From contig NZ_AYYP01000019.1 in assembly GCF_001436215.1 (NCBI RefSeq), positions 1-64,000 on the forward strand: 64,000 nt of DNA. Direction: 5' to 3'. The notes beneath the pieces were generated by a model. The model did no database searches. It was not told the DNA's origin and saw only the letters and a program-made list of their open reading frames with translations. This DNA comes from Ligilactobacillus agilis DSM 20509. Lineage in GTDB: Bacteria > Bacillota > Bacilli > Lactobacillales > Lactobacillaceae. The translations under genes and the position numbers were made by a program. Shown piece after piece: positions 1-57,605 of this stretch. Position 1 is the first letter of the stretch; the number at the start of each line of letters is the position of its first letter.

Positions 1-88
1 GACCCTACACATTTGGTTTGTCTAAAACTTTGTTCAGTTTTCAAAGATCTACTCAAATGCCATCACCAATTAACAGTAGCGACAACTC
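1..88 (-). promoter_or_regulatory. 16S rRNA operon leader (operon continues past left edge)
   Basis: Read on the minus strand, 49-1 contains a boxA-like GATCTTTGA followed by AAAACTGAACAAAG and, near the edge, AATGTGTAGGGTC. These are hallmarks of the transcribed leader just before 16S rRNA in lactobacilli and enterococci. No mature rRNA sequence lies inside the window. A 16S-23S spacer would look similar in part, but the tandem promoters immediately upstream favour the 16S leader. Confidence 0.75.
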
Positions 89-11922: not shown

Positions 11923-11958
11923 GGCGTTTCACCTCCAAATAATCTCAGAGAAAATGCA

Positions 11959-12088
11959 GAAAAAAACGGGCATCTATCACTAGACGCCCGCACTAATCCG
12001 TTTTTATCGGAATTAATTTCAGTTATCCTTGCCCAGGAACTCACTTATTCCTTAGGCGAGAAGCGGGAGCCTCTGCTTTTTTCTCAAC
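11959..12088 (-). promoter_or_regulatory. L20 leader (r-protein attenuator) of infC-rpmI-rplT
   Basis: The minus-strand leader between the promoter and infC carries the recognisable L20-leader core, AGAGGCTCCCGCTTCTCGCC (about 12078-12059). It ends in an intrinsic terminator: stem GGGCGTCTAG/CTAGATGCCC-type (11990-11967) and a T7 run (11966-11960). In the known system free L20 stabilises the terminator form and stops transcription before infC. Assigned by pattern, not by a covariance search. Confidence 0.85.
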
Positions 12089-14100: not shown

Positions 14101-14325
14101 AAAAAAGTCCCTAGCATCTATTGATACTAGGGACGTCATTAACGTGGTTCCACCCGATTTTTAAGGCTAGACTAAGCCTAACCTCCTCAAGTCCGTTGTT
14201 AACGGGTTCGACCCGGCCCAACTTTTCATTGGGCTCTTAAAATAAGAGCGGCAAAAAATTTACTGCGAGGTTTTCAGTCACGCCCTCGCTCCCTGCTTAA
14301 ATTTCATTTAACTCTTACACGATTT
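14101..14325 (-). promoter_or_regulatory. T-box leader of thrS
   Basis: The minus strand has the T-box core GGGTGGAACCACG (14155-14143), which reads the uncharged tRNA end. It is followed by a terminator stem of 11 bp (14134-14107) and a T6 run (14106-14101). A Stem I-like hairpin GCGAGG/CCTCGC lies at about 14289-14264. Threonine specificity is inferred from the gene. A possible ACC specifier sits in GAAAACC near 14270, but I could not fix the fold by eye. Confidence 0.88.
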
Positions 14326-14368
14326 AACTATATTTAAGCACTATCTAAAAAAGATTGCAAGCTTAAAT

Positions 14369-22714: not shown

Positions 22715-24349
22715 TTACTTAAGGTAGGCGTACTTATAATTCCATTGTGTTCCTGCCGTGTTGTGAATAATCCCCTTGACCCGCTTCTTTTGTAAGTAGG
22801 CCGTAGTTTGTTGATACAGTGGGCTGACCCCTTGTTGACTGTTAAATAATTTAGCTGCCGCTACTAGGTCATTCCACCGTGCCAATTTATCATTGGCATC
22901 TTCGTTAGTTGCCTTAGCAATCAAACGGTCGTATTCCGAATTACTGTAATTTCCATAGTTATAAGATGTTCCTGTTAATGGAATTTGCAAAAAGGTAATC
23001 GGGTCGTTAAAGTCTCCCCCCCAACCGGAAACATAGATATCAAACTCACCCTTACGGGCCCGCTCTAAGGCGCTCTTTCCTGGAATATTTTGGACCTTAA
23101 CCTTTAAACCTGGTAACACCTTTGTATATTGAGATTGTAGATACTGCGTTAACGCATCGTTTGTTGGGGCATCGCTTGAAGCCAGAATGTTAAAGGTCAG
23201 CTCTTTAAGCCCCGTTTCTGTCAAACCTTTGCGCCAATACTTTTGGGCTAAGTTAGCGTCATAAGCAACTGTCTTAGTCACCGCTTGTTCCTTGGCAAAA
23301 TCTACTCCGGTTTGCGGATTTTTAGCTAAATCGTTGGCCACAAAGCCAGTTGGAACCTGAGAACCATCCCCAAAAACTTTCTTTGTCAACACTTTTCGAT
23401 CTAGTGCCAGCGACAAGGCCCGCCGAATATTTTGGTTATTTAAGGCCTTCTTGTTAGCAGCGTTAGTAGCATTGAAGTTATAGGCTAAAAAGGCCACATA
23501 AGAATATGGATATTGTTTGAATTCACTACTGTTCTTGTAATTTTTCACCTGCTGACTGGACAAAGGTGTCATGTCTAGCTTGTCTTGCTGATAGAGTTCA
23601 TAACCCGTGTTAGGATTACTTACCACCTTATAGCTAATCTTATCTAACTTAACTTGTTTTTTATCCCAGTAATTAGGATTTTTTTGAAAACTCCACTTAT
23701 CCGAAGTCCCCGTCCAGTCCTTAATTACAAACGGACCAGAATAAACCATGTACTTAGAATTAGTGGCATACTTTTTACCGTATTTTTCAACCACCTTTTG
23801 ATTTTGTGGTCCAAAAAGTGGGTAGGCCATTAAAACCTTAAAGTAAGCGATGGGTTTTTCCAAACTAATCTCTACCGTCTTGTTATCAAGTGCTTTAATA
23901 CCTAACTGTTCCACCGGTAACTTGCCCTTGCTAATTGCGTCCGCATTTTTAACTCCGGAAAAGAGGTAAGCATAAGGTGAGGCCGTCTTAGGGGTGAGCG
24001 ACCGCCGCCAAGAATAGACGAAATCTTGAGCAGTAATTTGGTCGCCATTACTCCACTTAGCATCCCTTAAGGTAAATGTCCAAGTTAACCCATCAGCCGA
24101 AACAGTTGCTTTTTTAGCCAAACCTGCAGTTGGCTGACCATTTTTGCCTAATCGATAAAAACTTTCAAATACATTACCTGTTTGCCCATAGCCAGTCGCC
24201 TTGGAAATATCAATCGTATCTAACGGCGCACTGGCAGATAAACGCAGTTCCTGTTGCTTGCTAGTCGTTTGTTGTTTGCCACAAGCCGTTAAGAATAACC
24301 CCGCTAATCCTAATGCCATGACTAACCCAACAATTTTTTTCTTCTGCAT
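22715..24349 (-). CDS. Peptide ABC transporter substrate-binding lipoprotein (OppA family, orphan)
   Basis: A 544-residue family 5 solute-binding protein, anchored by the lipobox LTACGK (Cys about residue 23) on the outer membrane face. Family blocks include WTFTLRDAKWSNGDQITAQDFVYSW-type text at about 88-112 and ALSLALDRKVL at about 313. It should deliver oligopeptides to an OppBCDF importer, but no permease or ATPase gene is nearby, so it works with components encoded elsewhere or is used in sensing. It follows a terminator at 24395-24428, so it has its own unseen promoter or depends on read-through from the small Cys-rich transcript. Confidence 0.92.
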   Translation of the reverse strand: MQKKKIVGLVMALGLAGLFLTACGKQQTTSKQQELRLSASAPLDTIDISKATGYGQTGNVFESFYRLGKNGQPTAGLAKKATVSADGLTWTFTLRDAKWSNGDQITAQDFVYSWRRSLTPKTASPYAYLFSGVKNADAISKGKLPVEQLGIKALDNKTVEISLEKPIAYFKVLMAYPLFGPQNQKVVEKYGKKYATNSKYMVYSGPFVIKDWTGTSDKWSFQKNPNYWDKKQVKLDKISYKVVSNPNTGYELYQQDKLDMTPLSSQQVKNYKNSSEFKQYPYSYVAFLAYNFNATNAANKKALNNQNIRRALSLALDRKVLTKKVFGDGSQVPTGFVANDLAKNPQTGVDFAKEQAVTKTVAYDANLAQKYWRKGLTETGLKELTFNILASSDAPTNDALTQYLQSQYTKVLPGLKVKVQNIPGKSALERARKGEFDIYVSGWGGDFNDPITFLQIPLTGTSYNYGNYSNSEYDRLIAKATNEDANDKLARWNDLVAAAKLFNSQQGVSPLYQQTTAYLQKKRVKGIIHNTAGTQWNYKYAYLK

Positions 24350-24389
24350 AGATCTTCATCCCTTCCCAATTTTATTAGTTACTAAACAC

Positions 24390-24428
24390 AAAAAGGACCT
24401 GGATTTCCACAAACAGAAACACAGGTCC
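24390..24428 (-). terminator. Terminator/attenuator between the Cys-rich ORF and oppA-like gene
   Basis: Stem GGACCTG/CAGGTCC (24428-24422 with 24401-24395), with a 20-nt loop, followed on the minus strand by TTTTTG. It lies 41 bp before the oppA-like start codon and 32 bp after the stop of the 35-codon ORF. Confidence 0.75.
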
Positions 24429-24459
24429 ACCTACTTTTACTAGTATTAATTACGTTTAG

Positions 24460-24567
24460 TTAACTTAGGTTTTTTGAAGTGCGTTTCAATTTGTGTAACA
24501 CAAAGGACATGTTGCCAGTTTGACAACATGAACAAGTCATTGTGTTTACACAAACTAATTTAGTCAT
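24460..24567 (-). CDS. Candidate 35-residue Cys-rich small protein or leader peptide
   Basis: A short ORF with unusually good signals. It has a consensus promoter 32 bp upstream, AAAGGAG 8-9 nt before the ATG, and a terminator shortly after its stop. The peptide reads MTKLVCVNTMTCSCCQTGNM and ends in a basic stretch (HKLKRTSKN). Four of its first 15 residues are Cys, all coded TGT. There is no signal peptide or membrane helix. The RNA spanning it can fold into one long hairpin (see the inverted repeat entry). I do not recognise a family. It may be a real small protein, or a regulatory leader of the oppA-like gene that senses cysteine supply. Confidence 0.55.
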   Translation of the reverse strand: MTKLVCVNTMTCSCCQTGNMSFVLHKLKRTSKNLS

Positions 24568-24576
24568 TTCACGCAC
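24477..24576. repeat. Nested inverted repeat spanning the Cys-rich ORF
   Basis: Three nested complementary arm pairs: AGTGCGT/ACGCACT (24479-24485 with 24570-24576), TTTGTGTAA-CACAA/TTGTGTTTACACAAA (about 24489-24503 with 24540-24555) and CATGTTG/CAACATG (24508-24514 with 24524-24530). On the minus-strand RNA this gives an imperfect hairpin of about 100 nt. It starts at the ribosome site and contains nearly all of the ORF. Confidence 0.7.
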
Positions 24577-24598
24577 TCCTTTCTCAATCTATGCTTTT

Positions 24599-24627
24599 AG
24601 CATAAGCGTTAACTTACTTTTTGTCAA
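24599..24627 (-). promoter_or_regulatory. Promoter of the Cys-rich mini-gene, with palindrome over the -10
   Basis: Minus-strand TTGACA (24627-24622), 17-nt spacer, TATGCT (24604-24599). The -10 is one arm of a perfect palindrome TATGCT-AAA-AGCATA (24604-24590), a possible operator. The start should be near 24592, leaving a leader of only about 25 nt. Confidence 0.75.
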
Positions 24628-24640
24628 TATATTTTTAAAA

Positions 24641-25972
24641 TTAATTATTCTTTAAACTCAAATTACTTAAGAGTTCTTCATAGACGTGTTCATACTTAGT
24701 GATGTCGCCAGCCCCCATGAAGACTACTACATCATCATGGAAGTCTAACAGAGGTGACATGTTGTCCATACTTAAAATTGCGCCACCCTTAGTAATCTTA
24801 GCACCTAAGTCTTTAGCAGACACCTTGCCATCCTTTTCTCTAATTGATGAGAAAATTTCTGTCAAAAAGACTTTATCAGCTAAATTCAAGCTGGCCGCAA
24901 ATTCATCCATCAGCGCAATTGTCCGGCTAAAAGTATGTGGTTGGAAGACAGCGATAATCTTCTTATCTGGATACTGTTGCCGGGCTGCGTCCAAGGTTGC
25001 CTTAATTTCGGCTGGATGGTGGGCATAATCGTCAATAATCACCATATCAGCGACGCGTTTTTCAGAAAAACGTCTCTTAACCCCTTTGAAAGTTAACAGT
25101 TCCCGCTTAATTTCATCTTGATCTACTTTTTCAAAGTAAGCTACTGCAATCACTGCTAAACTATTTAAGACATTATGTTCCCCAAACATCGGAATTTGGT
25201 AAGAACCAACGAATTCATCAAAGTGGTAAACATCAAAGGTCGAACCCTTAGTAGTCCGCTTAATGTTTTCCGCCCTAAATTCATCGTCTGCTTCAGTTCC
25301 ATAAAAGTGAACCGGCACGTCATAATTTAGCTTCCGTAAATGCTTGTCCTCACCGTAAGCAAAAATGCCCTTCTTCGTATTCCGAGCTAGCGTTTCAAAC
25401 GCATCACACACATCGTCAATCCCAGTAAAGTAGTCCGGGTGATCGAAGTCAATGTTAGTCATAATAGTGTAATCTGGGTGATAAGCTACAAAGTGCCGGC
25501 GGTACTCGTCCGCTTCAAAGACAAAGAAACGTGAGGCCGAAATTCCCTTCCCGGTTCCATCACCGACCAAAAAGCTAGTAGGTGCTACTCCGCTTAAAAC
25601 GTGGGCTAACAACCCACTGGTACTGGTCTTACCGTGAGCACCAGCTACCCCAATGCTAGTCGTTTCAGTCACTAACATTTCTACTGTTTCCGGGTAGGTT
25701 TGCACCTTCAAGCCTAGCTCTTTAGCGCGCTTAATTTCTTCATGATCTTCACCAAAGGCATTCCCCTTTACAATCGTCATGCCTTCCTTGATATTTTGAG
25801 CACTAAAAGGTAAAACTTCAATTCCAGCCTGTTCTAACCCTCTTTGGGTAAAGGTATACTTATCAATATCAGACCCTGCCACTTTGCAACCCTTATCCTT
25901 TAAAATTAGGGCTAATGAGCTCATCCCAGTCCCTTTAATGCCAACGAAGAAATATGTGGTATCCATATTCAT
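24641..25972 (-). CDS. murC: UDP-N-acetylmuramate--L-alanine ligase
   Basis: Adds L-alanine to UDP-MurNAc with ATP, the first peptide step of peptidoglycan synthesis, in the cytoplasm. The 443 residues start with the Rossmann motif [13 protein letters not shown], then the ATP loop [10 protein letters not shown] (about 113-122), the central ligase domain and the C-terminal block [14 protein letters not shown]. Full length. The ATG at 25972 has GAGGATT 9 nt upstream. It follows sftA, the same order as ytpS-murC in B. subtilis. Confidence 0.97.
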
Positions 25973-43098: not shown

Positions 43099-43306
43099 AA
43101 AAAAAGTCCCAGTTAGAAAAAATCTCTAACTGGGACGATTAAAAACCGTGGTACCACCCATCTTGAACTTACGCTCCACTTTCAGAGGTGATAACGGTCC
43201 TACTAGCCGAACTTATCTGTATTTCGAACATTTAATCCTGACCAGTTCGCATCACCCACTGGCTTTCTGACACCTAGATTAAAGTCTAATTAGTAATTTA
43301 TAAGAT
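43099..43306 (-). promoter_or_regulatory. T-box leader, tyrosine-type, of the NhaC-like gene
   Basis: Minus-strand T-box core GGGTGGTACCACG (43159-43147), then a 12-bp terminator stem (43136-43106) and a T7 run (43105-43099). Stem I is visible: apical CCAGT-GGGTGATGCGA-ACTGG (about 43263-43245) and the stem UUUAAUC/GAUUAAA. On the 3' side of the specifier loop stands GAAA-UAC-AG (about 43226-43218), the same setting in which GGC stands in the glyQS T-box. UAC is a Tyr codon. Confidence 0.88.
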
Positions 43307-46057: not shown

Positions 46058-46130
46058 TCACCCGTACGGGGATCGAACCCGCAACTCCGCCTTGAGAGGG
46101 CGACGTCTTAACCAATTTGACCAACGGGCA
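46058..46130 (-). tRNA. tRNA-Glu (anticodon CUC)
   Basis: A 73-nt cloverleaf without encoded CCA. The anticodon stem TCGCC/GGCGG holds loop CTCTCAA, giving CUC, which reads GAG (Glu). The D arm (GTC/GAC with U11-A24) and the T arm (GCGGG/CCCGT, TTCGATC) are standard for tRNA-Glu. The acceptor end is odd: U1-G72 and G2-U71 are tandem wobble pairs, where tRNA-Glu usually has G1-C72. It is a monocistronic unit with a consensus promoter and terminator. Confidence 0.88.
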
Positions 46131-57377: not shown

Positions 57378-57571
57378 TACAAAGAAAACACCGCTGCCAG
57401 TAAGGACGCAATCTGCGCGGTACCACCTTACTTGCAACGATGTTCTCGTCTGCCTCTTTAAGCTATTATTTACATTTTGACCATAGGTAGCACTCAAAAG
57501 CTACTTTTCTTACCTTGCAGCAACCGGTAAGTCTCTTAAAAAAGCCCGCCTTTAAGCATGTCCTAATCATA
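57378..57571 (-). promoter_or_regulatory. T-box leader of alaS
   Basis: Minus-strand T-box core AAGGTGGTACCGCG (57429-57416) followed by a GC-rich segment and TGTTTTCTTTG before the ribosome site. An apical CTTACC-GGTTGCTGCAA-GGTAAG hairpin (about 57531-57509) and GTAGC/GCTAC stem lie upstream. Alanine specificity is inferred from the gene; I could not fix the specifier codon by eye. Confidence 0.85.
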
Positions 57572-57576
57572 CCCAA

Positions 57577-57605
57577 AGTATAGGTAAAAAAACTTGGCTT
57601 GTCAA
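57577..57605 (-). promoter_or_regulatory. alaS promoter
   Basis: Minus-strand TTGACA (57605-57600), 17-nt spacer, TATACT (57582-57577). The -35 box begins 3 bp after the stop codon of the helicase gene. Confidence 0.85.

Follow-up and report, generated by a model that had tools for sequence, protein, structure and literature searches.

Upstream of cysS in Rhodobacterales, the uORF of the motif uORFC-8-2 has tandem Cys codons, usually at positions 14 and 15, in a first stem that is followed by an intrinsic terminator, and ribosome-mediated attenuation has been proposed (PMC8632094). The polycysteine uORFs of mycobacteria are, by the title of Canestrari 2020 (cited in PMC13236596), leaderless and act as cysteine-responsive attenuators. 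A further source describes the cys leaders of Mycobacterium as having no conserved terminator hairpins and those of actinobacteria as being without obvious terminators (PMC1262725). Bacilli carry a histidine leader peptide ahead of hisS paralogues, and leader and T-box exchange at one gene family is described there (PMC2965389). Attenuation by cysteine leader peptides is known from elsewhere, and the case of oppA in Lactobacillaceae is apparently undescribed, a limited claim judged from titles, none of which was found to mention a cysteine leader upstream of oppA for this family.

The window, i.e. the whole stretch of 64,000 nucleotides from Ligilactobacillus agilis DSM 20509 that was analysed, contains a Cys-codon leader ahead of an OppA-like gene that very probably acts as a ribosome-mediated, cysteine-responsive transcription attenuator of this gene. 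Tandem Cys codons in the first stem and a terminator are shared with uORFC-8-2. In contrast, the phylum is another one, the gene is oppA and not cysS, the Cys codons are more numerous and scattered, and the stem also closes the ribosome site of the leader itself. Since codons, stem and terminator fit that motif and the gene (oppA) and the lineage (Lactobacillaceae) do not, the leader appears to work like uORFC-8-2 without being a member of it. The statement of an earlier, sequence-only reading that no family with this layout is described was too strong, given the cysS uORF with Cys codons and terminator in Rhodobacterales (PMC8632094). With the mycobacterial and actinobacterial leaders the locus has the Cys-codon leader ORF in common; unlike the mycobacterial ones, its ORF is preceded by a Shine-Dalgarno (SD) sequence and followed by an intrinsic terminator. 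The bacillar histidine leader is alike in being a Firmicutes case of leader-peptide attenuation with T-box exchange and differs in amino acid and gene family. T-boxes (RF00230), which occupy the same place before oppA orthologues in other Lactobacillaceae, are unlike the window leader in sensing tRNA directly, without a leader ORF. The locus would add a Firmicutes case of cysteine leader-peptide attenuation in which the exchange with T-boxes is traceable across species.

The leader lies on the (-) strand between murC (25972-24641), located upstream, and the OppA-like gene (22715..24349, (-)). A sequence scan placed its promoter, TTGACA-N17-TATGCT, at 24599..24627 (-); the window contains three such sites against 2.1 expected, which is not unusual as a scan result alone. 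The ribosome-binding site AAAGGAG (24576..24582, (-)), assigned from sequence and fold, precedes an ORF of 35 codons (24460..24567, (-); ATG 24567-24565, stop codon 24462-24460) for the predicted peptide MTKLVCVNTMTCSCCQTGNMSFVLHKLKRTSKNLS. Its four Cys are located within the first 15 residues, at codons 6 (24552), 12 (24534), 14 (24528) and 15 (24525), and every one is encoded by TGT, so that this predicted SD-led frame, with 4 Cys of 35 codons, has the makings of the short ORF rich in the sensed codon expected of an attenuator. The intrinsic terminator (24390..24428, (-)) consists of a stem of 24428-24422 with 24401-24395, an inner stem of 24420-24415 with 24408-24403 and a U-run at 24394-24390. 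The stem 24428-24395 is present in the predicted fold; a simple terminator scanner missed it and reported the leader's inner hairpin instead. Promoter, AAAGGAG, ATG and the four TGT-encoded Cys in 15 residues had all been named in the sequence-only reading, and each is present. So is the palindrome TATGCT-AAA-AGCATA that spans the -10 of the promoter, to which we attach no meaning because the closest relative (L032) shows no such palindrome.

The OppA-like gene encodes a solute-binding lipoprotein (Pfam SBP_bac_5, E 3.5e-82) whose solved relatives are mostly peptide-binding proteins, and which may import peptides with sulfur amino acids. CtaP of Listeria, initially annotated as oligopeptide-binding, serves cysteine transport (PMC10269559). 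The window's own genome yielded no cysE match over the family cut-off and six weaker matches, which fits a reliance on imported cysteine without proving it. The attenuator reading predicts the signal, and hence the likely substrate, of a peptide-binding protein widespread in lactobacilli, some of which are used in food.

The leader RNA of 214 nt folds with -66.6 kcal/mol (z = -5.27; 0/200 shuffles as good), and the ORF hairpin alone has a fold z of -5.13. The predicted pairs, with arm coordinates counted off the dot-bracket string of the fold, are 24579-24571/24484-24476, 24558-24546/24498-24486, 24544-24540/24503-24499 and 24529-24521/24517-24509. The 5' arms of the leader hairpin (24579-24571, 24558-24546 and 24544-24540) form segment 1 (24540..24579, (-)), which takes in part of the ribosome-binding site. 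Its 3' arms (24476..24503, (-)) include segment 2 (24495-24480, (-)), a strand with two alternative partners, segment 1 and segment 3. The latter (24408..24423, (-)) is the antiterminator partner of 24495-24480 and overlaps the 5' arm and loop of the terminator. Codons 14 and 15, the tandem Cys codons, are held in the inner hairpin (24509..24529, (-); CAUGUUGU ... GCAACAUG), and a resembling CC-codon hairpin precedes oppA in Lactiplantibacillus and in the same-genus genome G006. The three nested arm pairs around the ORF and the terminator before the oppA-like start, as read earlier from the letters, both recur in the predicted fold, and the outer arm does begin in the ribosome site, 24579-24571 pairing with 24484-24476 near the ORF end. 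The antiterminator pairing between segments 2 and 3 (2:3) had been missed and is added support for the attenuator reading.

The minimum-energy fold has the antiterminator 24495-24480/24423-24408 when a stalled ribosome sits at Cys 14 or 15 and the 3' arm of the terminator is still unmade; placing the ribosome at the stop codon gives a predicted fold with the terminator. Once the whole terminator is present, the minimum-energy fold of the stalled state contains the terminator as well, and the choice must therefore be kinetic and made during transcription. Classical attenuators make their choice while the RNA is being transcribed. Measured against dinucleotide shuffles in the window, the pairing of segments 1 and 2 (1:2) stands out (E -36.9, p 0.005), and 2:3 (E -19.0, p 0.07) is only suggestive on its own; in the cross-locus control, the window's own pairing ranks 1 of 55 for both.

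We propose the following course of events. RNA polymerase would transcribe the leader from the promoter at 24627-24599, and a ribosome would start at 24567 and read the Cys-rich peptide. With Cys-tRNA charged, the ribosome would pass, segment 2 would fold onto segment 1, and the terminator would form and stop transcription before oppA. When cysteine is short, the ribosome would stall on the Cys codons, presumably at a site such as the Cys 14 or 15 of the folds, and mask segment 1; segment 2 would then pair with segment 3, the terminator would be prevented and oppA transcribed by read-through. The signal would thus be charged tRNA-Cys. Without translation, the 1:2 hairpin would close the leader's own ribosome site and leave termination as the default. 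As segment 2 lies within the ORF, it can rejoin segment 1 once the ribosome has passed. A release step presumably follows, and a ribosome at the stop codon would by some means keep segment 2, located upstream of that codon, off segment 3.

The check for conservation that had been suggested for this segment failed as a DNA search and succeeded through synteny and OppA orthologues, by which the relatives of the leader were recovered. The DNA search of 60 genomes returned, besides the window itself, only matches of chance length, and the leader peptide retrieved from 301 family genomes itself and then matches of E 0.008 and worse, of which only the self-match is meaningful. Ten leader peptides had no NCBIfam match at E <= 1; for eight, Pfam gave only Hemotin (E 0.1, below cut-off, with one peptide not from the window). 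Rfam gave no match at the leader in the window, the leader region or 31 loci; at the window site no known family reached its gathering score, the best being Histone3 (E 0.01, other strand) and RsaD (E 0.91), and no T-box (RF00230) matched within 24350-24700. Elsewhere, the same searches found T-boxes, an FMN riboswitch and below-threshold chance matches. Only synteny and the adjacent gene revealed the leader, which DNA and peptide searches had missed, and other genomes may therefore contain similar leaders that have gone unnoticed.

The stretch downstream of murC was read in 25 same-genus relatives (L053 could not be placed, and L041 offers only 79 nt), and such a leader was seen there only in G019, where murC is followed by a promoter-like stretch, the ORF MFKSVSVLFAKAQVTCCMMYNMCFSVHKNWNTHIFDIR, a terminator and an oppA-like gene. 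The letters of this leader differ from those of the window, its fold is of the same kind (z -4.56), and a piece of the relative's leader cut before its 3' arms has a fold z of -1.09. Three further genomes of the genus (G006, G008 and G020) have the oppA orthologue at another genomic place with a Cys-rich ORF ahead of it, and hence the element goes with oppA. This lends no support to the 'independent mini-gene' or free small protein of the sequence-only reading, as the element travels with oppA orthologues and, among the relatives of the genus, only G019 has it beside murC.

The association recurs in many lactobacilli. In the named genomes, 57/69 oppA upstream regions hold an SD-led Cys-rich ORF, counted if it had 10-60 codons and at least 3 Cys including CC, against 48/1380 dinucleotide shuffles and 8/518 stretches of 400 nt from murC loci. 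The 69 regions derive from 80 named-genome loci after exclusion of L217, L218, L224, L226-L230 and L232-L234, which are partial, paralogous or distant. The shuffles suggest about 3.5% false positives, by which roughly two of the 57 may be due to chance, L172 perhaps among them. Among the 12 regions without a counted ORF, nine contain a T-box motif and three neither; L169 and L215 are cut by a contig end, and the Cys-rich ORF of L204 runs into oppA and was hence uncounted. In the family genomes (30 loci, 37 stretches and G019), the Cys-rich ORF was present in 56/68 oppA upstream regions; this set shares species with the former and is not independent of it. A terminator follows the stop codon in 55/56 of these loci, L154 being the exception, so that an intrinsic terminator stands between ORF and gene in nearly all of them as it does in the window. 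The other 12 regions comprise L091-L094, L099 and L108 with a T-box, L102, L140, L141, L150 and L151, and L130, which on reading has a leader with only two Cys. Set by hand were L103 (first codon ACG), L104 (7 codons) and the starts of L113, L114 and L155. The leader occurs, for example, in Ligilactobacillus equi, salivarius, ruminis and hayakitensis, in Lactiplantibacillus plantarum, in Pediococcus pentosaceus and in species of Lentilactobacillus, Lapidilactobacillus, Furfurilactobacillus and Apilactobacillus. The promoter pattern TTGACn-16..18-TAnnnT precedes the leader ORF by at most 130 nt in 56/57 regions, against 38/2850 single-base shuffles.

After the start codon, the 57 leaders consist of 15.1% Cys and 7.1% Met, compared to 0.26% and 1.6% in background proteins. 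Little except the clustered Cys is kept of the peptides across genera; among the Lactiplantibacillus sequences, conservation of the peptide is rather good. That conservation would suit a free cysteine-rich mini-protein, e.g. a metal-binding or secreted one, made from its own transcript with a hairpin that only tunes translation, as would the element's own promoter, ribosome site and terminator and the CC and CxC patterns that could bind metal. We nonetheless regard a free mini-protein as quite improbable, because between genera little but the Cys cluster persists, the families of NCBIfam (no match) and Pfam (none above cut-off) offer no counterpart, the ORF end pairs with the terminator, a pairing unneeded by a free gene, and T-boxes replace the ORF elsewhere.

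For the attenuator, comparison among loci shows the Cys-codon ORF, a pair of helices that exclude each other, a terminator and the association with oppA. Across 55 loci, segment 1 was taken as the 20 nt before the ORF through the CC codons, segment 2 as the stretch that starts 12 nt downstream of the first base of the CC codons and ends shortly behind the stop codon, and segment 3 as the surroundings of the terminator 5' arm and loop. The 1:2 pairing exceeded that of dinucleotide shuffles (p < 0.05) in 37/55 loci and the 2:3 pairing did so in 31/55; 18/55 and 24/55 loci, respectively, did not reach this level. Neither helix passed the shuffle test in L090 (the same-genus L. ruminis), in the Furfurilactobacillus-type L107, L119, L125 and L126, and in a few others, e.g. 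L101, L104, L109 and L110. Own-locus pairs were stronger than cross-locus pairs for both helices (permutation p 5e-5 each, the smallest value that the test can give). The own pair was the best of 55 in 15 loci for 1:2 and in 8 for 2:3, and it reached the top five in 35 and 27 loci, respectively, ranks that are blurred by sequences common to near relatives. The mutually exclusive antiterminator thus emerges from the group (31/55, p 5e-5) more clearly than from the window (p 0.07), and from Lentilactobacillus with p 3e-4. In eight sequences of that genus, GTTAGCGCTGA, close to the end of the ORF, forms a helix with TCAGTGTTAAC of the terminator. Beyond it, a further helix extends 2:3; this extension helix differs between species and pairs within each, with a mean of -7.65 kcal/mol for own pairs against -4.35 kcal/mol; two of the eight sequences are identical there, and L174 and L176 have ranks 5 and 3. 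An alignment-free test was used because MAFFT shifts the helix by one column in some rows.

Compensatory changes, for which the stems were to be checked, were borne out for the ribosome-site helix (1:2) in 14 Lactiplantibacillus sequences, aligned with gaps of 3 or 6 nt within the ORF and with the fabifermentans row, misaligned at the ribosome site, left in (alignment A1). Column pair 9:112 reads A-U, C-G, U-A or G-C, and 12:109 reads C-G or U-A. Cells changed on both sides numbered 8 versus 2.1 in shuffles (0/500 as high), and the covariation score was 0.103 versus 0.039 (0/500). Two of the five covariation measures did not stand out, namely pairs with a change on both sides (2 versus 1.6; 294/500 as high) and further pair types (4 versus 4.3; 397/500 as high). 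The inner hairpin is invariant across the alignment and silent on covariation. Together with the 57/69 regions and the T-boxes found in place of the leader, the compensatory changes lend good support to the earlier proposal of a cysteine-sensing leader that attenuates the oppA-like gene.

As the helix with compensatory changes is that of the ribosome site, the leader might control oppA through translation or RNA stability, by hiding of the ribosome site or by processing, rather than through termination. L204 and L154, where the Cys-rich ORF enters the start of the oppA frame, suggest translational coupling at these loci. Such control is improbable as a general explanation, however, since a terminator lies between ORF and gene in 55/56 loci, the 2:3 pairing is present, and the hidden ribosome site belongs to the leader and not to oppA. 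A chance hairpin and ORF without function, for which the lack of DNA matches beyond chance length in the 60 genomes could be cited, is hardly credible against the fold z of -5.27, a nearest relative with the same kind of fold in other letters (z -4.56), the recurrence in 57/69 regions and the co-variation.

The codon content of the leaders is the direct evidence for cysteine as the signal of the attenuator. T-boxes are found at the same place before some oppA orthologues, five below the Rfam gathering score (E <= 1.8e-12) and one above it, and a T-box motif stands in place of the Cys-rich ORF in 9/69 regions of the named genomes. The idea that these T-boxes read Cys (TGC) was dropped, as the specifier is by position ATG in six loci, read by eye with the rule GAA-N-codon-N6-GAG; the set of nine motifs is outside this reading. 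In the window's own genome, this rule gave TAC before a tyrS and ATG before three methionine-type genes (named by eye), and for many of the 20 T-box loci there was no reading or the reading did not fit. The specifier codon is placed 1-5 nt from GAG, and not 6, in the literature (PMC2494555). The replacing T-boxes are therefore likely, and not proven, to read Met and not Cys, because the calibration is partial and the published spacing differs; a Met specifier counts against the attenuator reading. Some leaders contain both codons (e.g. MMMCCPCC in Lactiplantibacillus), and one could imagine a lineage-wide sulfur-amino-acid switch in which a single leader reads Cys and Met codons, the hairpin that encloses its ORF also gates its own ribosome site and the oppA clade alternates between leader and Met T-box. 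We hold this idea to be rather doubtful; if true, the alternation would point to an importer for peptides that contain cysteine and methionine.

The pattern of the inner hairpin matched in 34/301 genomes, compared to 12 for a reversed control pattern (table counted by hand). Out of 30 matching loci that were read, 20 hold an ORF with at least 2 Cys. The gene after the Cys leader looks like another OppA-type protein in G077, G189 and G211, and in G211 the oppA orthologue itself has a T-box. In G197 (L264 1454-2980), two polar-amino-acid ABC permeases, for which the HEQRo domain is over its cut-off and the glutamine and cystine models are below theirs, follow a Cys-rich leader that shares the inner hairpin and has a terminator behind it.

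Several minor features accompany these loci. Between terminator and oppA, the loci L095, L096, L098, L100, L104, L105 and L106 have a second very short Cys-containing ORF (e.g. MKKACCCRMLRGSI, MAKSCCCWMMTKN), perhaps a second, translational control. The Cys-rich ORFs that overlap the start of the oppA frame in L204 (Lacticaseibacillus saniviri; MCCECSNDQVGCCC...) and L154 (MCCMKAEADIDCCC...) may represent a form of the switch that acts on translation. L092, L093 and L094 have in common a short ORF between T-box and oppA that carries a WRGSSRG motif (e.g. MTRIRFHKIIAWLVFWRGSSRGSKAI). In the window's own genome, a T-box match (G000:C64:14755-14977 (-), L284, 88.2 bits) lies directly upstream of another OppA paralogue (G000:C64:12971-14572). 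The window itself has T-box matches under the gathering score at 57399-57579, 43128-43306 and 14126-14337 (-), the first preceding a gene for an AlaS-like and the second one for a Na+/H+-antiporter-like protein (genes named by eye). An L20 leader (11954-12084, (-)) and a tRNA (46058-46130, (-)) in the window are both ordinary.
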